A stretch of 64,000 nucleotides of DNA, taken from positions 310,001 through 374,000 of the forward strand of contig JAEWIS010000023.1 of assembly GCA_023386955.1 (NCBI GenBank), given 5' to 3'. Positions 9,205 to 26,652 of the stretch are shown here, piece after piece (positions within the stretch are counted from its first letter, which is position 1; each line of letters opens with the position of its first letter). This DNA comes from Bacillota bacterium. Lineage in GTDB: Bacteria; Bacillota; Bacilli; Paenibacillales; NBRC-103111. Under the pieces are notes generated by a model that saw only the letters and a program-made list of their open reading frames with translations, did no database searches and was not told where the DNA came from. The position numbers were made by a program, and so were the translations under genes.

Positions 9205-9587
9205 TTGTTAAACAAATTAGGCTTTCCAGCAAAGCTAAAGAACAGCTAATCCGATTAAAAGCAAAAACTGGCATCCAACAATGGAATATACTTTGTCGAT
9301 GGGGATTATGTCTTTCACTTAGTGAACCAACACCTCCTACGAACATTGATTATCCAGCAGATAGTAATGTTGAAATGTCTTGGCAGGTTTTTGGTGGAGA
9401 ATTTCAGGATTTAATTGAAGCTTTAGTTATTCAAAGATGCATTGATGATGGTTTGGAATGTAACGAAATGATGTATGCAAAGCAGTTTCGACTTCACTTG
9501 CACCGCGGCATTAGTTACTTATCCGGTACAAACTACATTAAAAGCCCAATTGATTTGTTAAACGTTGCTCTTGAGAAGGTTCATTAA
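9201..9587 (+). CDS. dndE: DndE, small DNA-binding component of DNA phosphorothioation
   Basis: This 128-residue protein opens with a helix-rich segment, KQIRLSSKAKEQLIRLKAKT, and then WNILCRWGLCLSL, the pattern of DndE. In known systems DndE binds nicked double-stranded DNA and works with DndC and DndD. It has basic residues along the first helix suited to DNA contact. The start overlaps the end of dndD by 4 bases, and dndA follows after 15 bases. Length matches the family. Confidence 0.93.
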   Translation: MIVKQIRLSSKAKEQLIRLKAKTGIQQWNILCRWGLCLSLSEPTPPTNIDYPADSNVEMSWQVFGGEFQDLIEALVIQRCIDDGLECNEMMYAKQFRLHLHRGISYLSGTNYIKSPIDLLNVALEKVH

Positions 9588-9602
9588 GAGTGGAGGAACC
9601 GA

Positions 9603-13219: not shown

Positions 13220-14188
13220 TCAAATGATACGTCTCATATTTTCCACCGGACTATATTTTTTGTGTTGCTGCTTAATATCGCTGCTGAACAACTCTACGTA
13301 ATATTCCACCATATCAAGTGTGGCATGTCCCAAAATTCGCCGCAAGGTAAATGGATCCCCGCCGTTAAGAATATAGAATTTGGCCATCGTATGTCTAAAG
13401 GTATGGGGGGATACTCGTACCCCTTGAATGCTTGCAGCTTTGCCGTAGTCTTGCATCTTATCCTGCAATGCACGAGTACTGATTCCCTCATTATTTATGT
13501 TTACGAATAGCATATCTGTCTCGAGGTCGCCTCGGAGATCCAAGTATTTGCGAACGATTTTTGCACAGGTTTGTTGAAATGGTACGCGACGTGCTCGACC
13601 TCCTTTACCCTTTGTAATTCGGATTTCCTGTTCCTTAAAGAATAAATCCCCCAGTTTCAAGCGACATAACTCACTGATGCGCATGCCGGTCTCAAACAGT
13701 ACAACCATCATTGTATAGTCTCGGATGCCGGTAAATGTTTTACGGTCTGGCTGTTCCAGAAGTGCAGCAACTTGCTCTTTTGTGAAGGTTTGAATCATAA
13801 GCTTTTCTGCTTTAACGACGTGTATTTCGTCTGCAATATTTTTAGTAATCCAACCTTCGGTAAACAAATACCTTAGAAATTGTTTAATCCCCTTGATTCT
13901 GCTGTTGACAGTATTATCCGACCTTCCTTGGTCAATCAGAAATGCAATAAAATAATTTTTGATTTCTCGTAAAGTAAGCTTATAGATGTTCAGTGGAACG
14001 TTTTGTTCTTCAAAGGCTTCCTTCATTTGCTGAATACTATCTTGATAGGCCCTCAAGGTGAGCGGAGAAAGGTTTTTGGCCTTGCAATCGAGAATAAATG
14101 AATGAAGCAATTCATCAAAGCTTAATTGCTGTTTTGCTGAGCTACTATTTTCATTATTAGCCAACACGTTTGGCCTGCGTTTAGTCAT
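13220..14188 (-). CDS. Tyrosine recombinase B of the cassette element
   Basis: A 322-residue tyrosine recombinase with an N-terminal SAM-like domain (residues about 25-110) and a C-terminal catalytic domain. Catalytic residues seen are Arg in GMRISEL, Lys in TKGKGGRARR, His-x-x-Arg in SPHTFRHTMAK, His in LGHATLD and the nucleophile Tyr in EYYVELF. Its start overlaps the end of the upstream recombinase gene by 8 bases, so they are co-translated. Both proteins end with the same ELFSxD...QHxKYSP pattern, so they are paralogues and may act as a heteromer, like XerC/XerD. A role at the cassette repeats is inferred from position. Confidence 0.88.
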   Translation of the reverse strand: MTKRRPNVLANNENSSSAKQQLSFDELLHSFILDCKAKNLSPLTLRAYQDSIQQMKEAFEEQNVPLNIYKLTLREIKNYFIAFLIDQGRSDNTVNSRIKGIKQFLRYLFTEGWITKNIADEIHVVKAEKLMIQTFTKEQVAALLEQPDRKTFTGIRDYTMMVVLFETGMRISELCRLKLGDLFFKEQEIRITKGKGGRARRVPFQQTCAKIVRKYLDLRGDLETDMLFVNINNEGISTRALQDKMQDYGKAASIQGVRVSPHTFRHTMAKFYILNGGDPFTLRRILGHATLDMVEYYVELFSSDIKQQHKKYSPVENMRRII

Positions 14189-15149
14189 GGTCAGTCACCC
14201 TGATTTCAAGGATGATGACATGTTGAAATTCATGCGCCAGGTGTTCGAGTGGACTGTATTTTTCATGTTGGACCTGCAGGTCTTGGGAAAACAATTCAAT
14301 GTACATTTCCGTAGTTTCCATTCGCTCATGCCCCATGATTGCTTTTAACGTAAAGATGTCTCCGCCGCGTAGTAGATATTGCTTGGCGAATGTATGCCTG
14401 AAGGTGTGACAGGAACATTGAATCCCTTTGATTTGAGCTGCTTGGCAATAACGGGTGACCATCGCTCGAATACCTGAAGCTTGATAAGGGCTACCATCTA
14501 GATTTACCCAAACATAGTCGTGCTCCAGTATTCCTCTTTCTTGCACATATTTTCTTAACTGGCTTAGGCAGGTTTGTTGAATAGGGACAATTCGTGGTTT
14601 ACGTCCCTTGCCTTGTTGAATTTTTAGGATCTCTTCATGAAACAGGATGTCTGATACTCTGAGGTTCTCAAGCTCTTTTAGTCGGAGTCCGGTTTCGAGC
14701 AGGACCAGCATCATGACGTAGTTGCGAAAGCCTGTAAACGTAGTTCGGTCAAGTTGAGCAAATAAGCGCTGAAGGTGTCCATCCGTGAAGGTGTGTTTCA
14801 TGGTTGGGGGTAATTTAAAAGCCTTGAGTTCAGCGGCAATATTTGTACTTATCCAGCCTTCACTTTCTAGAAATTTGAACAGTTCTTTCATGATGGCGAT
14901 TTGGCAGTTAATGCTTCTCAAGGACAGCTCCTTATTGAGCATCTCCGGGATCAGTCGATGAGTAAGATCAGAAGGCGTAAGTTCGGAAATATCTTTTTGT
15001 AGAGAATCCAGCTGATGCTGAAGCCTTTGCAAGCCTTTCCGATAGCGAAGAATGGTTTCTTTTGATAAATTTCGAATTTTACAATCCTGTAAATACAATG
15101 GAGTTGCTTCTTGTAAAGTGATGGGAGAGCGTGGAAGTAAGGTAGACAT
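14181..15149 (-). CDS. Tyrosine recombinase A of the cassette element
   Basis: A 322-residue tyrosine recombinase, the same length as its downstream paralogue. Catalytic residues are Arg in GLRLKEL, Lys in QQGKGRKPR, His-x-x-Arg in CHTFRHTFAK, His in MGHERMETT and Tyr in EMYIELF. I start it at 15149 because AAGGAGGAATACGCG precedes that ATG; a longer frame (to 15218) would run into the putative integration region. Its 5' end faces the array, 70-220 bases from the first structured elements, just as intI faces attI. I do not see the extra helix typical of IntI, so it belongs to another branch. Confidence 0.88.
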   Translation of the reverse strand: MSTLLPRSPITLQEATPLYLQDCKIRNLSKETILRYRKGLQRLQHQLDSLQKDISELTPSDLTHRLIPEMLNKELSLRSINCQIAIMKELFKFLESEGWISTNIAAELKAFKLPPTMKHTFTDGHLQRLFAQLDRTTFTGFRNYVMMLVLLETGLRLKELENLRVSDILFHEEILKIQQGKGRKPRIVPIQQTCLSQLRKYVQERGILEHDYVWVNLDGSPYQASGIRAMVTRYCQAAQIKGIQCSCHTFRHTFAKQYLLRGGDIFTLKAIMGHERMETTEMYIELFSQDLQVQHEKYSPLEHLAHEFQHVIILEIRVTDHD

Positions 15150-15216
15150 CGCGTATTCCTCCTTGGGAGTTTTACGCGGCGGCAAAAAGATATACGAAGT
15201 AGGAAGGAGTGGGTGC

Positions 15217-15271
15217 ATATAACTTCCGGATATGTGACTGAATATAACTTTCCAAAAATCGCAGGTTATAT
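15217..15271 (+). other. Candidate attI-like region with two direct repeats
   Basis: ATATAACTTCC at 15217 and ATATAACTTTCC at 15242 are direct repeats 25 bases apart. An inverted GTTATAT follows at 15265. Their TATAAC/GTTATA cores match the ends of the cassette repeats. The region sits between the recombinase promoter side and the first repeat, where an integron has its primary attachment site with integrase binding repeats. Function is inference. Confidence 0.35.
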
Positions 15272-15367
15272 AGCCTCTTCAGTGGGGTTACTCAGTCGGC
15301 TGAAACCCTTGATACATAAGGCTTTTAGGCATTCTGGGGATTTCTTGTTTCCTCCTTTCGGCTCGTA

Positions 15368-15521
15368 TAACACCGTATTCACGCTGCAGGGCTACGCCCC
15401 TTGGTCTGCTCGATGGATTTCGAGGAAGTGGATTCAAGCAGACAACCCTGCGAGGCTAAGTCTTCGACCCAGTCGCTGACGCTCCTTTAAGCCTCTCGGG
15501 TTCGTGAATACAACAACGTTA
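15368..15521 (+). repeat. Cassette recombination site S1
   Basis: First full copy. Ends are TAACACCGTATTCACG and CGTGAATACAACAACGTTA. Inner stem of the CGAGGCT / AGCCTCTCG class, with TTGGTCTGC / GCAGACAA as a second stem. Right arm (start of cassette 1) is GTTATATGTAATTGCCC. Confidence 0.85.
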
Positions 15522-16020
15522 TATGTAATTGCCCCAAACCTAAAGAAGAAAGCCCATCAGGAATCCACGGTCTTGAAAACCAATGGGAGAGGATGATTCG
15601 GAGAAGGAAAAGAATCAAGAACCCGCCTTGAGATAGACAGCGAGCAAGCAGCTTGTTCGGCTGAACCTTGATACGTGGGAGCAGCAAGAATTGGTTTCTA
15701 GATCGAAAGATTCCCGAACGAAATCGTCAACAGTCTTTACCCATTTAGATTTTCACTATTTGTAAAGGGCTTGGAAGGAATTCATCCGATAAAGACATTG
15801 GAAAGGCGAGAAGGACTGGAAAGCCGATTGGTGGAAGAGACCTTCCCTTGATCTCATCGGCTAAACCCCAGCCTTCCCCCTCCCTGGTGAACCCCTTCGA
15901 GGAAATCGGATGAACCCCTATAAGCCCTTTTGAAGAGCGGATTGAAAACCTAAAAGAGATGGGGAAAAGGCATATATGGACGATTTCTTGGGCTACTTCG
16001 AGGAAGAGGGCAACTACATA
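15522..16020 (+). other. Cassette 1: no convincing gene
   Basis: No plus-strand frame of useful length. The 117-residue minus-strand frame begins inside site S2, and its first 27 residues are just the translated repeat, so I reject it. The cassette ends are intact: the start GTTATATGTAATTGCCC matches the reverse complement of the end in 16 of 17 bases, so it is a genuine cassette that may carry RNA, a promoter or decayed coding sequence. Confidence 0.6.
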
Positions 16021-16176
16021 TAACACCGTATTCACGCGACGGGCCTGAAGACCCTTGGTCTGCAAGAGGCTTTTCGGAGAAGCGGAATCAGCAGACAACC
16101 CTGCACTGGCTAAGTCCTTCGGACCCGGGGCTTACGCCCCTTAAGCCAGTGAGGGTTCGTGAATACAACAACGTTA
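16021..16176 (+). repeat. Cassette recombination site S2
   Basis: Full copy, 156 bp. Inner stem of the CACTGGCT / AGCCAGTG class, followed by two small hairpins (TCCTTCGGA and GGGGCTTACGCCCC). Left arm ends CATATAAC, right arm begins GTTATACG; these do not pair with each other. Confidence 0.88.
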
Positions 16177-16226
16177 TACGCAATAGCTGTAAAAAATATA
16201 AGTGCGGGTAGTCCCCAGGTGATCAT

Positions 16227-16694
16227 ATGAGCTTATCACATGAGTTTTTTCTATTATCTAAAGAAATCGACCTAAATAACAGATATGAATGGTATTCTTC
16301 CCACAGATTTACTTGGTCAGCTAAATTAGCCCTATCTGATGACCTTATTTTGTTTCTTACTGATTTTTTGAATTGGATTCCAAGTCATAATCCAGAAACA
16401 AAAACAAATGGGCATGGCTTAAATTATTATGGAACTACAGTTATATACAAAAATGGAGCAGATAAACTAATTAACATTTTGGACAGCTTGGTTTCTTTAT
16501 TTGAAGAAGCACCAGATAAATTAACATTAAGAGGAAGAACAGAATGGTATGAAGAAGATGATGTGGAAGGTTACTGCAGAGAAACGAGAGTTTTATTAAG
16601 CAAAAAGGCTTTTTTAGGGGACTTAATAGAACTAAAGAAATGTTGTATTAAAGTGATAAGGGACGATTTTTATTTATTACATTTTGGAATATGA
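16227..16694 (+). CDS. Cassette 2: unrecognised protein
   Basis: A 155-residue acidic soluble protein, rich in aromatic residues (RYEWYSSHRFTW, RTEWYEEDD). No family recognised. It resembles small immunity or contact-type proteins common in Firmicutes, but there is no toxin partner here. An AGGTGA ribosome site lies 4-5 bases before the ATG, and the gene fills most of the cassette between S2 and S3, like a typical integron cassette gene. AT-rich codon use differs from the core genes at 42-64 kb. Confidence 0.75.
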   Translation: MSLSHEFFLLSKEIDLNNRYEWYSSHRFTWSAKLALSDDLILFLTDFLNWIPSHNPETKTNGHGLNYYGTTVIYKNGADKLINILDSLVSLFEEAPDKLTLRGRTEWYEEDDVEGYCRETRVLLSKKAFLGDLIELKKCCIKVIRDDFYLLHFGI

Positions 16695-16734
16695 TAAAGA
16701 ATTGTGGGAATCTCAGGATGGCAGCTACAGCGTA

Positions 16735-16890
16735 TAACACCGTAATCACGCCGCGGGCCATACGGCCCTTGGTCTGCAAGATGCTTTTCGAAGAGGCGGA
16801 ATCAGCAGACAACCCTGCGAGGCTAAGTGGCGGAGCCACCCGGTCCTAGTGGACCTTAAGCCTCTCGGGTTCGTGAATACAACAACGTTA
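16735..16890 (+). repeat. Cassette recombination site S3
   Basis: Full copy, 156 bp. One base change in the left outer arm (GTAATCACG). Inner stem of the CGAGGCT class. The two small hairpins are GTGGCGGAGCCAC and GGTCCTAGTGGACC, different in sequence from S2 but again perfectly paired. Confidence 0.88.
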
Positions 16891-16930
16891 ACTGAAATAA
16901 CCGAAATACTATATGTAGGGGGTCTTTTCA

Positions 16931-17509
16931 TTGAAGTTGACATATGACCTTGAAGGTATCGGTTGGGCAACCGTATACCTGAAGATAAATGATAAAGAAG
17001 AATATTTTAATCCGAGTTATTTCTCAGAAGCACTTATAGATCTATTAGACTCCGTAATGATTCTAATGCCTGAGTTTACTCCAAATGATGAAATTAAAGA
17101 AACTAGTTCGTTTGAATGGGAGCAGGAACCTGCAATCGCAATATGGACGTTAAAAAAACTAGGAAAAGAACAATTAGAAATTAGTATACGGCTTTATAAA
17201 GATGGTACTAAAAAATTAAATGAAAGAGATTTGGGTGAAACATTAATTGAAGAACAATGTAATCGTAATGACTTAATCAATGAGATTGTAGATAGTTTAG
17301 ATCAGTTGGTAAAAAAATACGGTCTAGTGGGTTATAGAGAAAATTGGTATAGAGGTGATTTTCCTATTGGTAGATATCTTAAATTGAAGAATTATGTACT
17401 TTCCGGACAGACAATTAACTATGAATTGATAAATGAAGGCGAACATAATGAATACAGAAAAACTAGTTTAAGAACTGAAATGAATATACTAACCGAACTA
17501 CTTAAGTAG
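16931..17509 (+). CDS. Cassette 3: unrecognised protein
   Basis: A 192-residue acidic protein. It starts with TTG behind GGGGG, about 8 bases away. Features are mixed alpha/beta with WATVYLKIN near the start, a Trp-rich middle and WYRGDFPIGRYLKLK near residue 142. I do not recognise the family. It shares with the cassette 2 product a similar size, acidity and WY-rich character, so both may belong to the large pool of immunity-like orphan proteins. The gene fills the space between S3 and S4. Confidence 0.72.
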   Translation: MKLTYDLEGIGWATVYLKINDKEEYFNPSYFSEALIDLLDSVMILMPEFTPNDEIKETSSFEWEQEPAIAIWTLKKLGKEQLEISIRLYKDGTKKLNERDLGETLIEEQCNRNDLINEIVDSLDQLVKKYGLVGYRENWYRGDFPIGRYLKLKNYVLSGQTINYELINEGEHNEYRKTSLRTEMNILTELLK

Positions 17510-17533
17510 CTCAGAGAAGTCGGTTACTTCAGC

Positions 17534-17709
17534 TAACACCGTATTCACGTGGCGGGCCTGACGACCCTTGGTCTGCAGAGGCATTTCGAGGAAGCGGAAT
17601 CAGCAGACAACCTCTGCGAACCTAACCGCGTCGCGGCCGGTCGGGATCCAGCTGCGCTGTGGATCTGTGCTTCCTTAAGGTTCTCGGGTTCATGAATACA
17701 ACAACGTTA
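17534..17709 (+). repeat. Cassette recombination site S4 (long variant)
   Basis: At 176 bp this is the longest intact copy, with an enlarged tip arm (GGATCCAGCTGCGC and GTGGATC region). Inner stem is CGAACCT / AGGTTCTCG, a third compensatory class. The right outer arm is CATGAATAC, opposite GTATTCACG. Confidence 0.85.
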
Positions 17710-17745
17710 GGTGAAATTATCGTAAAGCTAATTGTGAGGGATCTC

Positions 17746-18228
17746 ATGGAAGATTTTTATAGAATAATAAATGACCAATCCAAAGACATCTATACCAAGG
17801 TTGATGAACGAGTAGATGATTTTTGGAAGTGGTCAAAAACTGTAAAACAAACTTACGAATGGGAAACAAACTACCCCGACTGGTCATTACTAATTACTTT
17901 GGTTTTTACATTAATAGAAACGACGAACTATACTGAATGGGATCAAAAAACCATAAATAACTTGTTATATATAATTGCAAGAGACAATGAGTGTGAAACA
18001 ATAATTGAAAAGCTGACTGAACGAACAAATAATTATTTGTACTTAGCAGAAGAAGCCCTTAAATATTCTGATAATGATACTAGATGGCAATTTGCTCATT
18101 ATCTTATCAAGATTGAAGATAGAGAAACTGATGTAAGAGAATTATTATATAAATTTGCAAACGATTACGTTGAATATGTAAGAAGTAGGGCAATAGAAGC
18201 AATAAAGCTATTTGAAGGTAACTCATGA
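17746..18228 (+). CDS. Cassette 4: helical protein, possibly HEAT-like
   Basis: A 160-residue helical protein. I start it at 17746 (GTGAGGG upstream) because the longer frame begins inside repeat S4. The C-terminal half has repeated helix pairs (YLYLAEEALKYSDNDTRWQF, then VRELLYKFANDYVEYVRSRA), spaced like HEAT repeats, which usually bind proteins or nucleic acid. No catalytic motif. The gene ends 16 bases before S5. Function unknown. Confidence 0.72.
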   Translation: MEDFYRIINDQSKDIYTKVDERVDDFWKWSKTVKQTYEWETNYPDWSLLITLVFTLIETTNYTEWDQKTINNLLYIIARDNECETIIEKLTERTNNYLYLAEEALKYSDNDTRWQFAHYLIKIEDRETDVRELLYKFANDYVEYVRSRAIEAIKLFEGNS

Positions 18229-18244
18229 AGTCGATAACTTCACC

Positions 18245-18399
18245 TAACACCGTATTCACGCGGCGGGCCTGACGGCCCTTGGTCTGCAGAGGATTTTCGT
18301 GGAAGCAGAATCAGCAGACAACCCTGCACTGGCTAAGTCCGTCGGACCCGGGGCTGGCGCCCCTTAAGCCAGTGAGGGTTCGTGAATACGACAACGTTA
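18245..18399 (+). repeat. Cassette recombination site S5
   Basis: Full copy, 155 bp, close to the consensus. Inner stem of the CACTGGCT class; tip hairpins TCCGTCGGA and GGGGCTGGCGCCCC. Left arm CACCTAAC is the exact complement of the start of cassette 4 (GTTAGGTG); the right arm is GTTATGTG. Confidence 0.9.
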
Positions 18400-18457
18400 T
18401 GTGAAATACCATGAAATTCATTCAAAACCATAAAATCTTAAGAAAGAAGGAATCCTT

Positions 18458-18806
18458 ATGAGCCTAAAATTTCTTCTGAATGAGAAACCAACAAAGCTAT
18501 GGAATGATAGAATTTGGAGATGATCTTTTTACTGAAGAAAGATTGGAGTTATGTGACAAGGCTTTGGATAGTTTTATTAATAGATTAGAAACAATTGACC
18601 CTAATAGTGATGTACGAAATGAAGAAATAATGAATTGTGTAGGAGAGATAGTAATTGCTTTTAATGAGCTTAATGATGAGAATGACTATTTTATAGAAAC
18701 TATGGAAAGAGAAGAACTAGCTGAATTTATAGATAAAGCAGCAAAAACAGCAGGTCTAGAGGTACAAGATGGACTTGATATAACTGAAAAGTGGAGAGAT
18801 TGGTAA
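18458..18806 (+). pseudogene. Cassette 5: small acidic protein, apparently frameshifted
   Basis: AGAAAGAAGGAA precedes the ATG at 18458, which reads MSLKFLLNEKPTKLWNDRIW and then hits a stop at 18521. The downstream frame continues well (FGDDLFTEERLELCDKAL to WRDW) but its own first ATG (18480) has no ribosome site. The two halves join naturally near 18515, so a one-base indel is likely. Together they make an acidic protein of about 115 residues of unknown function. A programmed frameshift is possible but I see no slippery run. Confidence 0.6.
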
Positions 18807-18853
18807 GAGACTAGAACTCTTGAATGTATAACAAGGAGCCATGGTACTTCTCA

Positions 18854-19009
18854 TAACACCGTATTCATGCATCGGACCTGAAGGCCCTTGGTGCTGGTAA
18901 CGGCCCGGCAATTTGCCTGGCCGGCTGCCGCACAACCCTGCGAGGCTAAGTCTTCGACCCGGCGCTAACGCGCCTTAAGCCTCTCGGGTTCATGAATACA
19001 ACAACGTTA
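18854..19009 (+). repeat. Cassette recombination site S6 (second stem variant)
   Basis: Full length, 156 bp. Outer arms GTATTCATG and CATGAATAC: both sides carry the same change relative to S5, so pairing is kept. The left inner arm is a different, GC-rich hairpin type (CCCGGC / GCCTGG region), shared with S8 and S9. Inner stem of the CGAGGCT class. Confidence 0.88.
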
Positions 19010-19051
19010 TATGAAAGAACCCTAAGAATTTTTTATTGAAAGGAATTTTTT

Positions 19052-19486
19052 ATGGATGTTTCCATGATTGAGTTTTTAAGAACCGGAAGACTAGGCAATA
19101 TAGCAATATCTGATACATTGGACAAAGTAATATATGATTTAGGTGAACCAGATGATATAAGTATTTCAAGAAAACCAATAATCTATAAATACGGATCCAT
19201 ACAATTTTCATTCAGTAAGAACACTTTAGGGGATGAATTAAGTACAATACATTTTTATTTTTACAACTATTTTATTTGTCCGAGAAAGTTAGATTTTAAA
19301 GGGTGGATGCCCGATAATCAAACTGATTTAACTGATTTTCTCAATTATCTTAATAAAGAACAGATAGAAATTCAAAAAGATACTGAACATACATTTAAAG
19401 ATATACAAACAGGATATAAGACAGATAAGGGAGTTGTAATAATCTTTAACGAAAATAATCAACTGAATTCAATACATTATAGATAA
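19052..19486 (+). CDS. Cassette 6: unrecognised protein
   Basis: A 144-residue protein with GAAAGGA upstream of its ATG. It begins MIEFLRTGRLGNIAISDT after four residues and has an ILGEPDD-like turn, a pattern seen in widespread small orphan proteins that may be immunity proteins; this is only a resemblance. Strand-rich, soluble, no catalytic motif. The end of the gene is 35 bases before S7. Intact and AT-rich. Confidence 0.72.
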   Translation: MDVSMIEFLRTGRLGNIAISDTLDKVIYDLGEPDDISISRKPIIYKYGSIQFSFSKNTLGDELSTIHFYFYNYFICPRKLDFKGWMPDNQTDLTDFLNYLNKEQIEIQKDTEHTFKDIQTGYKTDKGVVIIFNENNQLNSIHYR

Positions 19487-19521
19487 TTTTTGGGTAATAC
19501 GAAGAAGAGGGTTCCTTCATA

Positions 19522-19677
19522 TAACACCGTATTCACGCGGCGGGCCTGCCAGCCCTTGGTCTGCAAGAGGCATTTCGAAGAAGCAAATTCAGCAGACAAT
19601 CCTACACTGGCTAAGTCCATCGGACCCGGGGCTGGCGCCCCTTAAGCCAGTGAGGGTTCGTGAATACAACAACGTTA
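19522..19677 (+). repeat. Cassette recombination site S7
   Basis: Full copy, 156 bp, CACTGGCT class, very close to S5 and S2. Left arm CATATAAC is the exact complement of the start of cassette 6. Right arm begins GTTAGCTG. Confidence 0.9.
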
Positions 19678-19747
19678 GCTGAAATGCCCTAAACCATAAA
19701 ATACCAATAAGTTGAAAAACAATGAACATCTTTTGTTGGGGGGCAAG

Positions 19748-20143
19748 ATGAACACAAATCTTAATTGTAAATGTTGTAATTACCCTGAGAATTTTAAGTA
19801 TGTTTTATTTGAGAATGAAACAGCTGCCTGCGTAGCTGATGACAATAATCTTTTAATAGGGTCATGTTATATAATACCCAAAGCACATAAAGAAACACCA
19901 TTTGATTTAACTGAAAGAGAATGGATAGACACAAAAAAACTAATTGATAAAATTAAAGATTACCTAGACACAAAATATAAACCGGATGGTTATAATCTTG
20001 GTTGGAATATCGGAGAAGTAGGCGGTCAGTTTGTTTTTCATTCTCATTTACATATTGTACCGAGGTATAAGGATGAACCGTTCGCTGGTAAAGGAATAAG
20101 GCATTGGCTAATGCAAGAAGAAAATAGACGAATAAATGTGTAA
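19748..20143 (+). CDS. Cassette 7: HIT-family hydrolase
   Basis: A 131-residue HIT-domain protein. HSHLHIVPRY near residue 100 is the histidine triad that forms the nucleotide-phosphate active site. The N-terminal CKCCNYPE may bind zinc. HIT proteins hydrolyse or transfer nucleotides from substrates such as Ap4A or aminoacyl-adenylates; the exact substrate cannot be told. I start at 19748 because GGGGGG is just upstream and the longer frame starts close to the repeat. It is a typical metabolic cassette gene. Confidence 0.85.
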   Translation: MNTNLNCKCCNYPENFKYVLFENETAACVADDNNLLIGSCYIIPKAHKETPFDLTEREWIDTKKLIDKIKDYLDTKYKPDGYNLGWNIGEVGGQFVFHSHLHIVPRYKDEPFAGKGIRHWLMQEENRRINV

Positions 20144-20207
20144 TTTAATAAACTAACAAAAAAGTATAAGACCATTGAATGTGGTTCGAAGAAGAGGGCA
20201 CATCAGC

Positions 20208-20367
20208 TAACACCGTATTCATGCGGCGGGCTTGACGGTCCTTGGCGCTGGAAGCGGCTCGGCAGTTTGCCTGACCCGACTGCGCGCCTAACCCAGCGAG
20301 CCTAAGTCTTCGTCCCGGCAGCTTGCGCTGCCTTAAGCCTCTCGGTTTCATGAATACAACGACGTTA
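20208..20367 (+). repeat. Cassette recombination site S8
   Basis: 160 bp. Outer arms GTATTCATG / CATGAATAC. Left inner arm of the GC-rich type (CTCGGCAG region). Inner stem CGAGCCT / AGCCTCTCG has a mismatch. Left arm CAGCTAAC is the exact complement of the start of cassette 7. Confidence 0.85.
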
Positions 20368-20576
20368 TACGCAACCCCTCAATGACAATGGAAAGATAAG
20401 TTAGTCGCGAACTCATTCGAATAATTCTGTAACCCCCTTCGAGCTGCGATATTTGAAGATTGAAGAGACATGAAGACCGAACAGATGTTGAAGGCGAAGA
20501 GCCATAGAAGATCGAAGAGACATGAAGACTGAAGAGACACCAAGACCGAAGAGACACCAAGACCGAAGAGACACTT
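20368..20576 (+). other. Cassette 8: gene-free, with a tandem repeat that has replaced the cassette end
   Basis: No plus-strand gene fits in about 200 bases. From about 20456 to 20575 the sequence is built of GAAGA-rich units such as GACCGAAGAGACACCAA repeated in tandem. The expected TAACACC start of S9 is missing; the tandem repeat runs straight into GTATTCATG. Slippage or deletion seems to have destroyed the left end of S9. Confidence 0.65.
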
Positions 20577-20725
20577 GTATTCATGCTGCAGGCCTGACAG
20601 CCCTTGGTGCCGGATGCGGTTCGGCAAACGGCCTGAACCGGCTGCACACAACCCTGCAAGGCTAAATCTTCGACCCGGCGCTGACGAGCCTTAAGCCTCT
20701 CGGGTTCGTTAATGCAACAACTTTA
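20577..20725 (+). repeat. Cassette recombination site S9 (left end lost)
   Basis: Starts at GTATTCATGC without TAACACC. GC-rich left inner hairpin (GGTTCGGCAAACGGCCTGAACC). Right end is degenerate (GTTAATGCAACAACTTTA), so this site may be inactive. Confidence 0.8.
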
Positions 20726-20765
20726 TACGCAACCCCCGAAACCATATTTTATAGGAGGTAATTCT

Positions 20766-21347
20766 ATGAAGCCAACTCTACTTGTTATTGATATCCAACA
20801 CTGGTTTTTTCAAATTCCAAGATTTCAAAGCCCTGAAGGGCAAGAGAAAGTGCAAATTCTTGTAGAAAAAACAAATCAGTTAATTCAATTTTTTAAGGAT
20901 AGTAACTTACCGATTATTCATATTATAACCGTACACAGTGCAGATGGAAGTACGAGAGGTCTCTGGGGGAAACAGAATGACAGTAAGGTCTTAACAGAAG
21001 GTACGATTGATGTAGAAGAATTACCTAATTTACTGAAATATGATACTGATAAGATCGTTATAAAGACTCGAACAAATTCATTTTTACGAACTAAATTAAA
21101 TGATGTGCTTCATGAATTAGAAGCCGACACATTAATCATAACAGGATATTCAACAAATAAATGTGTAGGAATAACCTCAATTGAGGCATGTGAACGGGAC
21201 TTTCAAGTGCTTTTATCTAGCGATGCAATATTAGGACCACAAGAAGATCGTATTAAGGCTATGGAAATAATATTAAGCACATATGGAATAGAACCAAAAA
21301 CGAATGAAGAAATAATTGAAATGATCAATAACAAATTGAAAGTTTAA
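20766..21347 (+). CDS. Cassette 9: isochorismatase-family cysteine hydrolase
   Basis: A 193-residue member of the isochorismatase-like superfamily. The expected triad is present: Asp in LVIDIQ near residue 8, Lys in KIVIKTRTNSF near residue 99, and Cys in STNKCVGIT near residue 132. Members hydrolyse amides or vinyl ethers such as nicotinamide, ureidoacrylate or isochorismate; the substrate is not evident. AGGAGG stands 7 bases before the ATG at 20766; longer frames begin in S9. The gene ends 31 bases before S10. Confidence 0.88.
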   Translation: MKPTLLVIDIQHWFFQIPRFQSPEGQEKVQILVEKTNQLIQFFKDSNLPIIHIITVHSADGSTRGLWGKQNDSKVLTEGTIDVEELPNLLKYDTDKIVIKTRTNSFLRTKLNDVLHELEADTLIITGYSTNKCVGITSIEACERDFQVLLSSDAILGPQEDRIKAMEIILSTYGIEPKTNEEIIEMINNKLKV

Positions 21348-21378
21348 TCATAGAAGCAGTTGAAGCGGGGGCAGCGTA

Positions 21379-21533
21379 TAACACCATATTCACGCGGCGG
21401 GCCTGAAGGCCCCTGGACTGCAGGAGATATTTCGGGGATGCGGATTCAGGCAGATAGCCCTGCACTGGCTAAGTCCGTCGGACACGAACTGGAGCCCCAT
21501 AAGCCAGGAGGGTGCGTGAATATAGCAAGGTTA
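21379..21533 (+). repeat. Cassette recombination site S10
   Basis: 155 bp with several base changes (ACACCATATTCACG; CGTGAATATAGCAAGGTTA). Inner stem CACTGGCT / AGCCAGG is partly broken. Left arm CGTATAAC still matches the GTTATACG-type start of cassette 9 apart from its one changed base. Confidence 0.82.
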
Positions 21534-21588
21534 TCAGAAAGATACGCAAATAATTAAAACAATATAAAGTAGAAGGAGAAGATTGTAC

Positions 21589-21765
21589 ATGGATGCAGAA
21601 TCTGCAGGAGCTTATTTTACATTTTTTCCAATCTTAATTATGCTTTTTAATCTTGCATTAGCTGGAACAGGGATATATTGTTTAATTCTATTTATTAGGT
21701 TAGCACACAGAGGGATCAAGGCACTCGACATATATATTGAAGATAAGACAAATGTAAATAAATAA
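21589..21765 (+). CDS. Cassette 10: small membrane protein
   Basis: A 58-residue protein with one long hydrophobic segment (residues about 10-38, FFPILIMLFNLALAGTGIY and on) followed by LAHRGIKALDIYIE, which would sit on the cytoplasmic face. Similar small membrane proteins are common in Bacillales. AGAAGGAG is 10 bases before the ATG at 21589, which I prefer to a TTG 6 bases earlier. Function unknown. Confidence 0.68.
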   Translation: MDAESAGAYFTFFPILIMLFNLALAGTGIYCLILFIRLAHRGIKALDIYIEDKTNVNK

Positions 21766-21884
21766 TGGGAAAAGACATATATGAAAAATTAATTATACAT
21801 AAATTTGAATGACGCAGTTAGAGAATTAATTAAACACGTTTAGATAGATTTAATCAACATTTTGATGAATGCGTATCCATCCGA

Positions 21885-22020
21885 TAACACCGTAATCACG
21901 CGATTGGCCTTATAGCCCTAGATTTGCAGAAGTTTTAGGAAGCTGAATTACCAGGCAACCCTGCACTGGCTAAGTCCGTCGGTCATAAGCCAGTGAGGCT
22001 TCGTGAATACAACAATGCTA
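21885..22020 (+). repeat. Cassette recombination site S11 (short internal deletion)
   Basis: 136 bp. The outer arms GTAATCACG and CGTGAATAC remain, as does CACTGGCT / AGCCAGTG, but the tip hairpins are deleted (GTCCGTCGGTCATAAG) and the core is GCTA instead of GTTA. Confidence 0.8.
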
Positions 22021-22100
22021 TAAGAATTCCGCCTAGAACCGGAAAAGCCGAGAGCAAATTCTAGGTGCTGTATTCATTCACGGCAAAGAAGGGGAATGGT

Positions 22101-22717
22101 ATGGAGAAATATTGGAATCACAATACTGCTTTCACGATGAATTAGTTGCTGATGTAAAGATACGCGGTGGACGAGTGTTCGACATAGGTTGCGGTGACGG
22201 GTTATTACTCCATCGACTTGCCCCGTTTGCTGAGCAAGTTGTAGGAATTGACCCTCATAAAGAAATCATTTCACGCGCACAAGAGAGACTTGCATCGGTA
22301 TCAAATGTATCTTTAATATACGATGACTTTCTTACAATGCCAATCGGGGAACGCTATGATACTATCACCTGTGTTGCGACTTTGCACCATATGGATGTAA
22401 GAGCTGCGCTGTCAAAAATGCACCAAATACTCGCACCGGGCGGGCGAATTTTGATAATTGGGTTAGCAACGAATAAATCTATTATGGATTATATAATATC
22501 GGGACTTTTATTACTTCCAATCCGTCTTATGGATAGACTTCATGGAGGGATGAAAGGTATAGGTGTGCGAACTGCAGAACCAAAAGATTTTTTAGGTGAG
22601 ATCCGCCAAGTAGCTCACGGAATCCTTCCAGGGGCAATAATCAGACGTCGTTTTTATTACCGGTATTCTTTAGTCTGGAATAAACCAAAGGATGCAAATG
22701 AGAACGGTATAAAATAG
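22101..22717 (+). pseudogene. Cassette 11: SAM-dependent methyltransferase, one-base frameshift near the start
   Basis: Class I methyltransferase. The ATG at 22101 follows AAGGGGAATGG and reads MEKYWNHNTAF, a standard N-terminus for the family, but then hits TAG at 22143. The next frame continues with HDELVADVKI, then FDIGCGDGLLLHRL (SAM-binding motif I) and VATLHHMD. Adding one T in the GCTTTC run would restore a protein of about 205 residues. Translation from the TTG at 22112 is possible but without a ribosome site. So it is either a recent pseudogene or a sequencing slip. Confidence 0.72.
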
Positions 22718-22788
22718 TAGATTTAATTATTAAAGTAAGGGGAATGTTAAAAAAAGGAAGTAATTTCAAAGAAGGCGCTGACTTCTTA

Positions 22789-22848
22789 TAACACCGCATG
22801 GAGCCGCGGGCGACTCCATATGGGAATTCGCGAATGCGAGGAACATTA
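22789..22848 (+). repeat. Cassette recombination site S12, miniature 60-bp form
   Basis: Begins TAACACCGCAT and ends ATGCGAGGAACATTA. The outer stem CGCAT / ATGCG replaces GTATTCACG / CGTGAATAC on both sides, so pairing is conserved. Inside are ATGGAG / CTCCAT and the palindrome ATTCGCGAAT. Its size is that of a short classical attC. Confidence 0.7.
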
Positions 22849-22876
22849 TATGAAAGACTCTTGAAGGGGAATACAT

Positions 22877-23446
22877 ATGATAATCAAAAAGGATCAAATT
22901 ATTTTAAGAGACCTTCAAATCGAGGATATTGATGATTATGAGCGATGGTATAGAACGGATACGGAATGGATGAACTGGGATGCTCCGTGGGAATGTAAAG
23001 ATGGAATAAAGATTGATGAGATGATGACGAATATCAAAAGACGAATTAATCAAGGGATCAATAAATCTCGAAGCAGATTAGAGGTATGCTTGGAATCAGG
23101 AAAACATATCGGATGGGTAACATCATACTTCATCAATGGGGACCCCAAGAAAGTAGCAGTCGGAATAGATATTCCTGAGGTATGTTATAGAAGTCAGGGG
23201 AATGGAAGAATAGCATTAGAATGTTGGATTGACTATTTATTTGCAGAACGCGGCTTATTAAGGCAATATACACAAACATGGTCAGGAAATTTACAAATGA
23301 TGAATTTAGCAAAGAATCTAGGATTTCAGGAAATTGAAAGAAGAATCGACATACGGGAAGTAAGAGGAGACAAATATGATGCAATAACATATGAAATAAC
23401 GAAAGAGAGATTTTTGAATTTCGATAAAGTTAAGTTCTTCATATAG
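22877..23446 (+). CDS. Cassette 12: GNAT-family acetyltransferase
   Basis: A 189-residue GNAT protein. The stretch VGIDIPEVCYRSQGNGRIAL near residue 96 contains the Q/R-x-x-G-x-G/A acetyl-CoA loop (RSQGNG). C-terminal LGFQEIERR is the usual closing strand. The substrate cannot be told; the closest flavour is RimJ/RimL-like. GAAGGGG stands 9-10 bases before the ATG. The gene lies between S12 and S13. Confidence 0.85.
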   Translation: MIIKKDQIILRDLQIEDIDDYERWYRTDTEWMNWDAPWECKDGIKIDEMMTNIKRRINQGINKSRSRLEVCLESGKHIGWVTSYFINGDPKKVAVGIDIPEVCYRSQGNGRIALECWIDYLFAERGLLRQYTQTWSGNLQMMNLAKNLGFQEIERRIDIREVRGDKYDAITYEITKERFLNFDKVKFFI

Positions 23447-23646
23447 TTACCGTATTCACTCGGCGGGCCCCGATGGCACTGAGTATTTGGAATGGCTCGG
23501 AAATTTACCTGGACGAACTGCGAGCACAACCCTGCGAGCATAAGTAGAGGGAGTCAATCATTAGTCACCAGCCTACCAGGCATAGTGACGAAGCCCACCG
23601 ATCTTATCGGATCTTAAGCTACTCATGCTCGCAGAAGTACACGTTG
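23444..23646 (+). repeat. Cassette recombination site S13 (degenerate, long)
   Basis: CCGTATTCACTCGGCGGG marks the left end. A fully different but perfect inner stem, TGCGAGCAT / ATGCTCGCA, and a final ACGTTG mark the right. It is over 200 bp with an enlarged tip. The start of cassette 12 still matches the sequence before it in about 10 of 12 bases. Confidence 0.7.
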
Positions 23647-23736
23647 TTCTCTTGAAAGCACCGTATTTATTTTTCAATATCTTCTTGGATAAATGTTTAA
23701 GGAGTAGGACTACAACTTCAAATGGGGTTCAGGAAT

Positions 23737-23931
23737 ATGAAAATTTATAAACATAAAGTAATTCAAATTATTGGGAGTCTCATCACAGCACTATATGTAC
23801 TGGTGCCGATGGGAATAGTGACATCAAAGAAAATTTATTTTTTTACTACTTTGCCTGGAAGCCTTTTATTATGGTATGGAACTTGGATGGAATATAAAAT
23901 GGAAAAGCATAAAAAAAAGGATAAAAACTAA
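23737..23931 (+). CDS. Small membrane protein
   Basis: A 64-residue protein with two hydrophobic segments (about residues 10-28 and 34-52) and a lysine-rich tail (KMEKHKKKDKN). The frame extends 15 bases further up to an ATG at 23722, so the start is uncertain; I chose MKIYKHKV. No family recognised. It lies downstream of S13, and a faint repeat trace with CCCTTAAGC follows at 23935-24000. Confidence 0.55.
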   Translation: MKIYKHKVIQIIGSLITALYVLVPMGIVTSKKIYFFTTLPGSLLLWYGTWMEYKMEKHKKKDKN

Positions 23932-24028
23932 ATGCAAGGTCCCGAAGACCCCATGAGAAACCAACGCCGTAGGCCCTTAAGCAGAAAACCCCTAAAGATC
24001 ATTGTAAAATAAAAAGGAGAATCACAAT

Positions 24029-24299
24029 ATGAATTATGTACATGATAACGAGATAATATCCTACCAAGTTGAATTAGCAAACCATTGTTGAGTATCCCAC
24101 ATCCTTATTTTTTGAACAAAACGCCAGAATACTTGACGAACGAAAGAGTCATTGTTGGCCTATATATTACAAAACCATAGAAGAATTGGATGCCATATTA
24201 ATAAATGATAAATATACGTACTACATTATATATTCAGCCTATGGACTAAACGGGTGGATTTTAGCAAAAGAAATTGAGATAAAGAAAGGTAAGGAATGA
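24029..24299 (+). pseudogene. Frameshifted small soluble protein
   Basis: AAGGAG precedes the ATG at 24029, which reads MNYVHDNEIISYQVELANH and stops at TGA 24088. Another frame then reads on without a break, EYPTSLFFEQNARILDER to KEIEIKKGKE, to a stop at 24299 that overlaps the start of the next gene by 4 bases. So this was a protein of about 90 residues, broken by a small indel near 24090. Function unknown. It once formed a two-gene cassette with the following membrane protein. Confidence 0.65.
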
Positions 24300-24676
24300 C
24301 ATTGAAAAATTATTATAAACCAACATTAAGCTATGTAGGATTATGTTTGGTCACTATAACAGCTGTAGCGCATCTATGCTTTAAGTTAGCTAGGACTTCA
24401 GATGTTGGATTAAGTATTCTATTATCACTTGTTAATGCACTTTGTTTAGTTTTTACCTTGTTATGGGGCATTATGGGAATATTTGAGCTGGTTAAATTAC
24501 TAAAATTACAAATGAATAATAAAAGGCAATTCAAAAATGGAAGCATGCATAAAGATGATTATATGAATAAATCAAAAAGACTTTATTATTGTTTGTTTAT
24601 AAACGTTAGCTATTTAGTCTTTTTCTTGTGTCAACTAGTATATGTTATTTATAACTTTGATGAAGTAAATGTTTGA
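24296..24676 (+). CDS. Small membrane protein with about three membrane segments
   Basis: A 126-residue protein with hydrophobic segments at about residues 11-29, 38-62 and 95-118, separated by a basic cytoplasmic stretch (KLQMNNKRQFKNG). Its ATG overlaps the stop of the frameshifted gene before it (ATGA), which suggests it depended on translational coupling. No family recognised. Confidence 0.62.
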   Translation: MTLKNYYKPTLSYVGLCLVTITAVAHLCFKLARTSDVGLSILLSLVNALCLVFTLLWGIMGIFELVKLLKLQMNNKRQFKNGSMHKDDYMNKSKRLYYCLFINVSYLVFFLCQLVYVIYNFDEVNV

Positions 24677-24724
24677 TATTTGAAGTTTGATGTCAGGTAT
24701 TAAAAGTGGTCATATTCAGTTTGC

Positions 24725-24767
24725 GCTACATTCACGCGACGGACCTAACGGCTAGTGAATTAACAAC
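24725..24767 (+). repeat. Remnant of a cassette site
   Basis: GCTACATTCACGCGACGGACC and, 10 bases on, TAGTGAATTAACAAC keep both outer arms with the whole middle deleted. Confidence 0.6.
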
Positions 24768-24885
24768 AAAACCGATCTACCTATTCTTGAACAATAATAC
24801 ATAATCCGTAATACTCTAAAAATAGAAACGGTTAAAAAAGATGATAGACCCTAAGGAATATGTAATTTATAACAGGGAGGTAAAA

Positions 24886-25320
24886 ATGTACGAACCTAAT
24901 GATGATGACATTAAGATACAAAGATCAATTCTTGATGAAGAGAGAGAACCGTTTGTAATCAGGTTCTTTTTTAATAATAAAAATACCATATATGGATTCG
25001 TTGCCTTGGGTGAAACAGGTTTCACTCAATATGGTCTTGATATAATTGCTGCAGGGGTCTCGGCACTAATCATTAATACAATACACAGCCTAAAACATTT
25101 AACAAAAGATCATGTAGAAGCTGAGATGCAGAAAAATTACTCAACATGTATATTACCAGAGCTACAAACGAAAAATCGGGGGAGTAAAGAGGCAATAACA
25201 TTGTTAAAGTCGCTAGAAATTGGAATACATAGCATACAAAATACGTATGGGGAGAAATATATAACATTAGAAAAGTTATATGAAAAACAAAAAACAGGAT
25301 TATTTAAAATATTTAAGTGA
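24886..25320 (+). CDS. Prp-like protein lacking the catalytic residues
   Basis: A 144-residue protein. Residues about 41-75 (FVALGETGFTQYGLDIIAAG then VSALIINTIHSL) match Prp, the cysteine protease that trims ribosomal protein L27 in Firmicutes, whose hallmark is GHA...G-x-DIVCAAVSAL. Here the His position is Glu (GET) and the Cys position is Ala (DIIAAG), so it should be inactive as a protease. GGGAGG stands 5-6 bases before the ATG at 24886, which I chose over a longer start. It could be a decoy, a binding protein, or simply a drifting paralogue. Confidence 0.6.
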   Translation: MYEPNDDDIKIQRSILDEEREPFVIRFFFNNKNTIYGFVALGETGFTQYGLDIIAAGVSALIINTIHSLKHLTKDHVEAEMQKNYSTCILPELQTKNRGSKEAITLLKSLEIGIHSIQNTYGEKYITLEKLYEKQKTGLFKIFK

Positions 25321-25443
25321 GTTGCATGCTCTTCGATGATGATTTTTTCGAGGTGCGGAATAGTAAGAATCTTGTGCCGACTAAGTTCGTTGGACCTGAC
25401 AAATACCCCTTAAGCCTTTGAGGGGGGGAATACAAGACCGTTA
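25321..25443 (+). repeat. Degenerate cassette site
   Basis: Recognisable pieces in order: TTTTTTCGAGGTGCGGAATAG, CTAAGTTCGTTGGACC, CCCCTTAAGCC and GAATACAAGACCGTTA. The left outer arm is lost. Confidence 0.65.
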
Positions 25444-25471
25444 GTCGGAACAACATTAAGGAAGGTGAAGA

Positions 25472-26101
25472 ATGAAAAAATTTCAAGTATCAAGTATGAT
25501 AGCAATCCTAATTCTATGGCTAATAGCTAGGGTGTTTCTTGAATTACAATTCGTTGGATTTTTTTCTGATGCATCAGCTCCCATTTCAGCGGTTGTGGTT
25601 CTTTATGTTGCTGCAGTCATCCTCTTATTTTTTATTTTTCTCCTTCCTGGAGTGCATTCTGATCAATTGTCAAATCTAGGAATATTGATAGTACTCCCGC
25701 TTTTCTTGCTATCTATTCCTGCCTACTTCGATTTTGCAAATAAACATGTTGTTCAATGGAACGAATCAAGGAGGTTACAAGAATACTATAAAAATGTTGA
25801 GAAAACAAAAACGTACTATAAGGGAGTCTTAAAGCAAGAATTTACATATGATGAAATCATATATTACTCCGATAAGTCAACCATCTATTCTTTTAGTACT
25901 ACAGAAACTCCTTCTCTAGAACAAGTCAAGTATTTGTTAAATGCAATAAAGCCTGTGGATCATCTAAATATTATTGTGCGTTTGTTCAATGAAAGTGAAA
26001 AGAGTCATTGGACTATGCGATTTGATAAGAATAAACAAATAGTCAGATGCGAGGAATCATTATCTCCAGAAGGAAATATATACGTCAATCTCTGTAAGTA
26101 G
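25472..26101 (+). CDS. Membrane-anchored protein of unknown function
   Basis: A 209-residue protein. Three hydrophobic segments lie at about residues 8-30, 38-60 and 68-88, followed by a soluble domain of about 115 residues with mixed strands and helices. AAGGTGAAG precedes the ATG. No family recognised. It follows a degenerate site and precedes another, so it is a cassette gene by position. Confidence 0.65.
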   Translation: MKKFQVSSMIAILILWLIARVFLELQFVGFFSDASAPISAVVVLYVAAVILLFFIFLLPGVHSDQLSNLGILIVLPLFLLSIPAYFDFANKHVVQWNESRRLQEYYKNVEKTKTYYKGVLKQEFTYDEIIYYSDKSTIYSFSTTETPSLEQVKYLLNAIKPVDHLNIIVRLFNESEKSHWTMRFDKNKQIVRCEESLSPEGNIYVNLCK

Positions 26102-26121
26102 AGTCTGCGGTATCGAATTAC

Positions 26122-26260
26122 TGATTTACGCCGCGGCGGCCTGACGGTATTGGTTCTATAGAGTGTAATTTTCCTACGTGCAAAATTTACTTTATCTGCA
26201 GAAGCTTTTCGAAGAAGTGGATTCAGCCGATAAACCTGCACCGGTTAAATCCAATGGACG
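26122..26260 (+). repeat. Degenerate cassette site
   Basis: GCCGCGGCGGCCTGACGG and TTGGT on the left, CTGCAGAAGCTTTTCGAAG then TGGATTCAGC in the middle, CCTGCACCGGTTAAATCC on the right. The right outer arm is gone. Confidence 0.65.
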
Positions 26261-26295
26261 GGGTTAATAACAATAAAACCAAAGGATTGATAACA

Positions 26296-26652
26296 ATGAT
26301 ATTAGAAGTAGCCATATTGCAAGTGAAAACTGGGTTAACAGAAGAGTTCGAGCAGAATTTTAAGATAGCTTCGGGAATCATCTCAAAGATGAAGGGCTAC
26401 GTTAATCATGAAATACAAAAATGCATGGAAGACACCAATAAATATATATTATTAGTACACTGGAATACTCTTGAGGATCATACCATTGGATTTCGAAAAT
26501 CAGAGGAATACCAGGAATGGAAGAAATTATTACATCCCTTTTATGATCCATTTCCGACAGTTGAACATTATAAAATGATCGATCTTAATGAAGCAGCGGA
26601 GCCACCTGTATCTATAAGACGAGGAAAACCCAAAATAAATAACACAAAGTGA
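26296..26652 (+). CDS. Antibiotic biosynthesis monooxygenase (ABM) family protein
   Basis: A 118-residue single-domain protein with the ABM ferredoxin-like fold pattern: ILEVAILQVKTGLTEEFEQ at the start, MKGYVNHEIQ in the middle, KYILLVHWNTLEDH and FRKSEEYQEWKKLL after it. Members are small dimeric monooxygenases or quinone-type enzymes without cofactor. I start at 26296, about 10 bases behind AAAGGA, because the longer frame begins inside a repeat remnant. Intact. Confidence 0.75.
   Translation: MILEVAILQVKTGLTEEFEQNFKIASGIISKMKGYVNHEIQKCMEDTNKYILLVHWNTLEDHTIGFRKSEEYQEWKKLLHPFYDPFPTVEHYKMIDLNEAAEPPVSIRRGKPKINNTK

Follow-up and report, generated by a model that had tools for sequence, protein, structure and literature searches.

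The window analyzed here is a 64,000-nucleotide stretch from a Bacillota bacterium of the Paenibacillales (GenBank assembly GCA_023386955.1, contig JAEWIS010000023.1, positions 310,001 to 374,000 of the forward strand). It features two adjacent tyrosine recombinase genes on the minus strand and, facing them, a row of gene units on the plus strand that are separated by large branched repeats. We read this region as an integron-like cassette array together with the recombinase pair of a separate integrative element, inserted in one of the cassette sites—a reading to which we assign a probability of roughly 0.76. The integron-like cassette array as such is well supported. The repeat-separated units are likely movable cassettes, and the integron-like system to which they would belong is widespread in Paenibacillus and related bacteria. 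The pair is likely the integrase of an element targeting the left half of the cassette sites. The first-pass annotation of this DNA had described two minus-strand tyrosine recombinases facing a repeat array, which is confirmed (13220–14188 and 14181–15218), and had joined both into one integron-like capture system. The cassette array with its large branched sites stands, in a genome that its protein relatives place as Paenibacillaceae-type, whereas the assignment of the paired recombinases as its machinery is not supported.

Structure of the cassette sites

A covariance model finds eleven plus-strand repeats of 136 to 176 nt in the window, running from 15368 to 22020. Beyond 22020, the repeats decay, with a weak twelfth match at 26166–26304. 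Eleven repeats followed by decay is what the first-pass annotation had reported, too; the lengths, however, vary more than its figure of about 155 bp conveys. The TAAC start is intact in ten of the eleven and lost in the repeat at 20569–20725. The fold features a TAAC/GTTA closing stem, an asymmetric spacer (3 nt opposite 6 nt), a GTATTCACG/CGTGAATAC box, and three branches. Folding of one repeat (S5) as single-stranded DNA gives z scores of −5.5 for the top and −6.7 for the bottom strand. In an alignment of 35 sites from eight sources (two of 37 sites were left out), 20 of the 23 predicted pairs have at least one sequence changed on both sides with pairing kept. Conservation in secondary structure is, hence, a property that the repeats share with integron sites. 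The integron core GTTRRRY is not: GTTA is kept, and the fifth base is a T in 74 of 120 cases.

The array of Paenibacillus wulumuqiensis (genome G017, locus L106) features sites of mostly ~90 nt, from which it appears that the long branches of the sites may be dispensable. A motif resembling TTCGAAGAAG with two mismatches at most occurs in the last 45 nt of 148 of 304 cassette ends, compared with 18 of 300 mid-cassette controls; a similar stretch also lies within the second branch of the site.

The units as probable cassettes

A circular state would make the start and the end of a cassette neighbors, and the two could, therefore, evolve as one stem. In nine of the ten intervals of the window, the interval's own start and own end are complementary at 9 to 11 of 12 positions, whereas the two flanks of one site pair at only 1 to 8 of 12. 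The tenth interval (20368–20568) was dropped from this count, the start of S9 being lost. In a set of 266 distinct cassettes that represent 20 genome groups (filters had removed 46 intervals), pairing of own start and end averages 9.3 of 12. The average is 5.1 both for the two flanks of one site and for other ends taken from within the array; the maximum reached in 2000 within-array shuffles is 6.06. An A–C mismatch at position +11 of this stem is retained in 242 of the 266 cassettes and is possibly a strand mark.

Near-identical cassettes tend to share the site downstream of them. Of 57 pairs whose bodies are at least 92% alike, 40 match better in their downstream sites, three match better in their upstream sites, and 14 are ties—better meaning by at least 8 points, and 50 of the 57 pairs coming from one genome (G093). 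The cassette is, thus, a gene plus its downstream site, as in integrons. In genome G002, two look-alike cassettes are adjacent in one array and have two others between them in another, and each is accompanied by its own downstream site in both arrays. A left-edge crossover for all recombination was considered and rejected, because look-alike cassettes mostly retain their downstream site; the left-half junctions belong to the element of the pair.

All arrays examined have 304 intervals in total; the longest open reading frame (ORF) follows the strand of the sites in 234 of these and the opposite strand in 32, and 38 intervals have no ORF of 60 aa. The same-strand, mostly one-gene units of the first-pass annotation are borne out overall, with the exception of 15522–16020 and 20368–20568, which lack a same-strand ORF of at least 60 aa.

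Since the repeats fold and covary like RNA elements, they could instead be immobile RNA or DNA structures, of a regulatory or REP-like kind, that lie between ordinary genes. We regard this as very improbable: The repeats match no Rfam family up to an E value of 1, the pairing joins the two ends of a cassette and not the two flanks of one repeat, and gene-plus-repeat units are found again at other places.

Distribution of the sites

The covariance model for genome searches was built from the 35 aligned sites. Its matches occur in 16 of 17 genomes chosen for carrying a relative of the pair (E 0.01), in 62 of 104 genomes of one family, with at least five sites in 27 (E 0.001, up to 28 candidates scored per genome), and, likewise at E 0.001, in 34 of 299 genomes of a class-wide sample that partly overlaps the family genomes. 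The matches are concentrated. All 29 of genome G058 lie inside 22 kb, and in the near-complete chromosome of G093, at least 69 of 78 lie inside 75 kb, with four elsewhere among the matches listed. This last array (G093:C1, 2187646–2262838, parts of it in loci L109–L112) is located downstream of one recombinase, and numerous near-identical cassettes recur in it at several positions. Ten genomes carry a close relative of the pair; seven of them have at least 12 sites and the other three 2 to 4.

The first-pass annotation had set a capture system against repeats scattered without these recombinases. Many genomes do carry the repeats without the pair; the repeats are, however, clustered in arrays and not scattered. 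As for the clustering next to the pair that it had proposed to look for by covariance search, the matches do form arrays, and the number of sites shows no association with the pair, distant relatives counted in, across the 104 genomes.

A single recombinase at the head of several arrays

Ten fetched arrays (L094, L103, L106, L109, L114, L116, L119, L120, L125, and L126) feature a single tyrosine recombinase (intact in some, broken in others) that lies on the same strand as the first site and 5′ of it. It is 0.4 to 1.5 kb away from the first site, except in L125, where a fragment overlaps the site. Other fetched arrays (e.g., L122, L124, and L127) have no single recombinase within the stretch examined. 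At several of these loci, as judged by eye, the leader ends in GTTA and is directly followed by the first gene with its own start–end pairing. This arrangement, a candidate attI beside a recombinase, is not present in the window.

Scored against the integron-integrase model TIGR02249, the single recombinase yields 188.8 to 217.1 bits (five proteins) and 89.5 bits (a fragment), the two proteins of the pair 69.2 and 81.1 bits, and IntI1 508.6 bits. Only IntI1 is above the cut-off of 265 bits, and no protein above it was found in any of 12 genomes checked. In the tree, the single recombinase clusters with IntI1 and two IS91-neighboring integrases (support 100/98), and the pair falls outside. The spacing between the catalytic Arg and the HxxRH box is 90 to 92 in the single recombinase (four of five proteins gave a value), 131 in IntI1, 95 to 96 in host XerD, and 92 in all 41 proteins of the pair. 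The recombinase of L109 aligns to IntI4 in two pieces and leaves residues 174 to 236 of IntI4 unmatched. As judged by the spacing of 90 to 92 compared with 131 in IntI1, the single recombinase lacks the additional (I2) domain specific to IntI. An integrase with this domain is part of the definition of integrons in passages of PMC9668308 and PMC7790495.

The presence of the single recombinase goes in hand with the number of sites: At least five sites occur in 11 of 13 family genomes with it and in 16 of 91 without it. When the first protein of the pair is taken instead, together with its distant relatives, the values are 2 of 11 with it and 25 of 93 without it. Broken single recombinases lie beside arrays in G020 and G047, two of the site-rich genomes without a recombinase match. 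The integrases of L174 and L175, encoded on plasmids of Chryseobacterium and Roseobacter beside IS91-family transposases or in their vicinity, are 38% identical to the single recombinase.

An improbable alternative is that host XerC and XerD move the cassettes, as they do the dif modules on plasmids of Acinetobacter. What would speak for it is that the sites have a right arm presumably resembling the XerD arm of dif, and pdif modules are a known XerCD cassette system. Several arrays, however, have their own 5′ recombinase, whose presence tracks the number of sites, and the sites are long, branched, and of one orientation per array. At 136 to 176 nt, the sites of the window are not the short dif-like sites of such modules, and the recombinases of the pair remain under the XerC and XerD cut-offs.

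The recombinase pair and its probable element

The window carries two recombinases beside the array, not three. The first of the pair (14181–15218, minus strand, P0001 family) has its likely start at 15149, which is codon 24; the second (13220–14188, minus strand, P0002 family) matches Phage_integrase at 2e-36 and remains under the XerC, XerD, and IntI cut-offs. The two ORFs overlap by 8 nt, and the R...HxxRH...H...Y pattern is intact in both, as read from alignments. A leader of ~150 to 220 bp separates the pair from the first repeat. This leader (15150–15370) is the putative end of the pair's element and carries the arm GGCTCGTATAA at 15360–15370. It runs into a putative attR at 15360–15383 on the plus strand, composed of the element arm GGCTCGTATAA, the overlap CACCGTA, and the cassette-site box TTCACG; it is assigned as such because an identical junction adjoins bracketed elements in relatives. 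Relatives show the DNA between S1 and the recombinases to be the end of a different element, a correction to the first-pass annotation.

Among relatives of the pair, the leader is conserved, and in the comparisons read, similarity stops 14 to 50 nt into the first site; the exception is L006 compared with L108, where it continues through the first site. In 11 of 11 loci with the pair, the closest match of the first site is an inner site and not another first site, in an uneven comparison of 326 inner with 10 first sites and with a partial sequence for L007. Copies of the arm motif occur at similar distances inside both element ends in relatives. The subterminal motifs of the window leader are more degenerate, with one copy within one mismatch. 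The more distant pairs L016 and L019 have no repeat of at least 40 nt in the 6 kb searched, and the 42 matches among phage records are all below 60% identity.

The extent of the element can be appreciated from two near-identical copies. A contig of Paenibacillus mellifer (G009:C63, 201,556 bp) and a plasmid of Cohnella herbarum (NZ_CP051681.1, 174,538 bp) have 110,162 bp in common at 99.964% identity and a second block of 23,684 bp at 99.996%, separated in the P. mellifer contig by a 1.6-kb insertion. The common DNA, 133.8 kb across two genera, is annotated with arsenic, Wadjet-type, and spore germination genes and with VirB4-, VirD4-, relaxase-, and ParB-type genes. Outside of the common blocks, the replicons diverge at the position of arrays. 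In both, the junction on the side of the pair reads GGTTCGTATAA-CACC[AG]TA-TTCACG and the opposite one TAAC......TTATACGAACC, each at a cassette end. Cassette turnover alone as the reason for this difference was rejected because chromosomal-looking genes (kdp-like and selD-like by eye) follow the P. mellifer array; in this contig, the element looks integrated. In a contig of Paenibacillus sp. 32O-W, the two arms are joined as GGCTCGTATAACTCCGTATTATGCGAACC, and past the right arm, the sequence differs in part from that of other right ends. This may be a circular form or a relic. Relatives, hence, show both junctions of the element and, in one case, its ends joined to each other; the window shows one junction.

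Bracketed elements, with the pair at one end and the far end joined to a cassette end, occur in four relatives: G003 (~81 kb), G006 (38 kb), G007 (76 kb), and G009 (135 kb). In all of these but G006, whose contig stops 0.6 kb past the far junction, cassette sites follow on the other side of this junction. The far junctions of G004:C107 and G005:C2 come after cassette-like ends. The contig of G007 unites both recombinase systems: A single recombinase is followed by ten sites and a far junction, then by the 76-kb element with the pair, and then by a near junction with a site and more sites, some of them weak. Its single recombinase is a 312-aa open frame matching query residues 137 to 365. The far junction L183 (G003:C72 near 106494) lies after a terminator-like hairpin and has no cassette site, which suggests a second kind of target for this kind of element.

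In three genomes, a third tyrosine recombinase of opposite direction, with its own branch in the tree, lies beside the pair (L092:384–1442, L088:496–1602, and L102:2210–3307). A recombinase-in-trio element was considered for this reason and was rejected for the window with its two recombinases.

The flanking of the element by repeats on both sides also bears on the view that the pair serves a parallel capture system as its cassette integrase, with the leader and S1 as its attachment site, and it is the reason that this assignment was given up as the preferred one. The assignment agrees with the conserved leader, which in most of the twelve closest loci continues into a complete site, with the locus that has both arms joined and no array between, with the two near-identical replicons that differ in their arrays at the junction point, and with the at least 12 sites in seven of the ten genomes that carry a close relative of the pair. 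In three of the four bracketed cases, however, the pair's element has repeats on either side, and the far end is a matching junction; the pair is not associated with the number of sites in the 104 genomes and is missing from most site-rich family genomes; and look-alike cassettes mostly follow the right site edge, whereas the junctions of the pair are in the left half. We, therefore, consider it unlikely.

Proposed mechanism and its weighing

In the mechanism we propose, a single tyrosine recombinase that belongs to the IntI clade but lacks the extra domain would be located at the 5′ end of the array, in the same direction as the cassettes, and would move them. The moving unit would be a gene with its downstream site, either as a circle or as a folded strand. 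In the circle, both cassette ends would pair and thereby lengthen the stem of the site, and cassettes would recombine with each other at the right edge, at GTTA. The pair would insert its own element. This element ends in the arm GGYTCGTATAA on one side and the arm TTATRCGARCC on the other, and the arm motif recurs further inward; its attP would consist of both arms around a CWCCGTA overlap, and its target would be TAA-CACCGTA-TTCACG, which is the left half of a cassette site. In the window, the element would have inserted at S1, with only the near junction (15360–15383) visible, and the host would carry its single recombinase outside of the window.

Several observations weigh against an array invaded by a separate element. 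The window itself holds neither the far junction nor the single recombinase. Almost half of the site-rich family genomes (13 of 27) have no match to any of the three query recombinases, and a single-recombinase match is lacking in G001, G004, G005, and G008, which are four of the ten genomes carrying a close relative of the pair. That seven of these ten are rich in sites is compatible with either view of the pair. The 62-row tree contains one IntI only and is subject to long-branch warnings. When the body identity is lowered to 80%, the shared site is the downstream one in 37 cases, the upstream one in 11, both in 17, and neither in 38. The search for far junctions in eleven genomes, allowing up to three mismatches, gave 19 hits compared with 11 for a reversed control pattern, and three-mismatch hits, therefore, mean little alone. 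Nine junctions were used: eight hits with two mismatches at most and G003:C65, whose three mismatches are all outside of the arm and which was accepted because it follows a cassette end on the contig that carries the pair itself. Among these nine, L183 lies outside of an array, L190 is ambiguous, and one is the joined form.

Layout of the window

All sites and cassette bodies are on the plus strand, and the sites were called by the covariance model. The array begins with site S1 (15368–15521, 141.9 bits) and a cassette body without a same-strand ORF of at least 60 aa (15522–16020), whose own ends pair at 11 of 12 positions. Site S2 (16021–16176, 166.7 bits) precedes the body 16177–16734 with the ORF 16227–16694, and S3 (16735–16890) precedes the body 16891–17533 with the ORF 16931–17509; neither ORF has a Pfam match. 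Site S4 (17534–17709) is followed by the body 17710–18244 with a likely ORF from 17746, which is weakly HEAT-like and has related cassettes in G001 and G002. Site S5 (18245–18399), also supported by DNA folding, leads to the body 18400–18853 with the ORF 18480–18806, a weak DUF5713 match. After S6 (18854–19009), the body 19010–19521 contains the ORF 19052–19486 without a Pfam match, and after S7 (19522–19677), the body 19678–20207 encodes a HIT-domain protein (19712–20143). Site S8 (20208–20367) is separated by the short interval 20368–20568 from S9 (20569–20725, 58.6 bits), the 5′ end of which is decayed. The body 20726–21378 encodes an isochorismatase-like protein. Between S10 (21379–21533) and the shortened S11 (21885–22020), a body with a short ORF (21534–21884) has own ends that pair at 9 of 12 positions.

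The region 22021–22787 carries a methyltransferase gene (22112–22717) and is likely a former cassette, the next repeat being decayed. It continues into the decayed tail of the array (22788–26304) with GNAT and Prp-like genes among others and the one weak site (26166–26304). On the other side of the pair, plus-strand genes for DndD, DndE, and a class-V aminotransferase (desulfurase-like) lie at 7207–10721. These three genes may be cargo of the pair's element, their membership being putative.

Relation to known systems and significance

The arrays resemble integrons in having same-strand cassettes, a unit of a gene and a folded 3′ site, a core starting with GTT, an IntI-clade recombinase starting several arrays, and large chromosomal arrays. 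They differ by a recombinase that lacks the IntI extra domain (catalytic-box spacing 90–92 compared with 131) and runs in the same direction as the cassettes, by three-branched sites of mostly 130 to 190 nt, by a cassette-specific end pairing over at least 12 nt, and by a host from the Bacilli. With clusters of attC sites lacking an integrase (CALIN), they share that many site-rich genomes have no recombinase match at the thresholds used; the type of site differs. The dif modules (pdif) of Acinetobacter plasmids likewise feature genes between tyrosine-recombinase sites and two recombinases, but with Xer sites and host recombinases in place of long branched sites. Among elements that target attC, group IIC introns are also mobile DNA tied to cassette sites (PMC7923331). 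The IS1111-attC group is a further kind of such DNA. The element described here differs from both by its size of tens of kb, its tyrosine recombinase pair, and its joining at a half-site.

Integrons are described as extremely rare in Firmicutes in sections of the IntegronFinder 2.0 paper (PMC9024848), with one complete integron (Limnochorda pilosa) and few CALIN. No description of a system such as the present one was found among titles and abstract openings, a weak negative since most subscription papers and preprints lie outside of this coverage. We lean toward a second integron lineage across the Paenibacillaceae, with giant branched sites and an integrase that never gained, or lost, the extra helix, and with large paired-recombinase elements that use half-sites as a landing place.

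In passages of PMC7790495, the extra helix of the integrase is credited with the switch to folded single strands. A widespread cassette system with a helix-less IntI-like recombinase makes this idea directly testable. The arrays are, moreover, a pool of unexamined cassette genes, with at least 69 sites in 75 kb on one chromosome. The invading element, with ~134-kb near-identical copies in two genera, suggests that the arrays also act as landing places for large elements.

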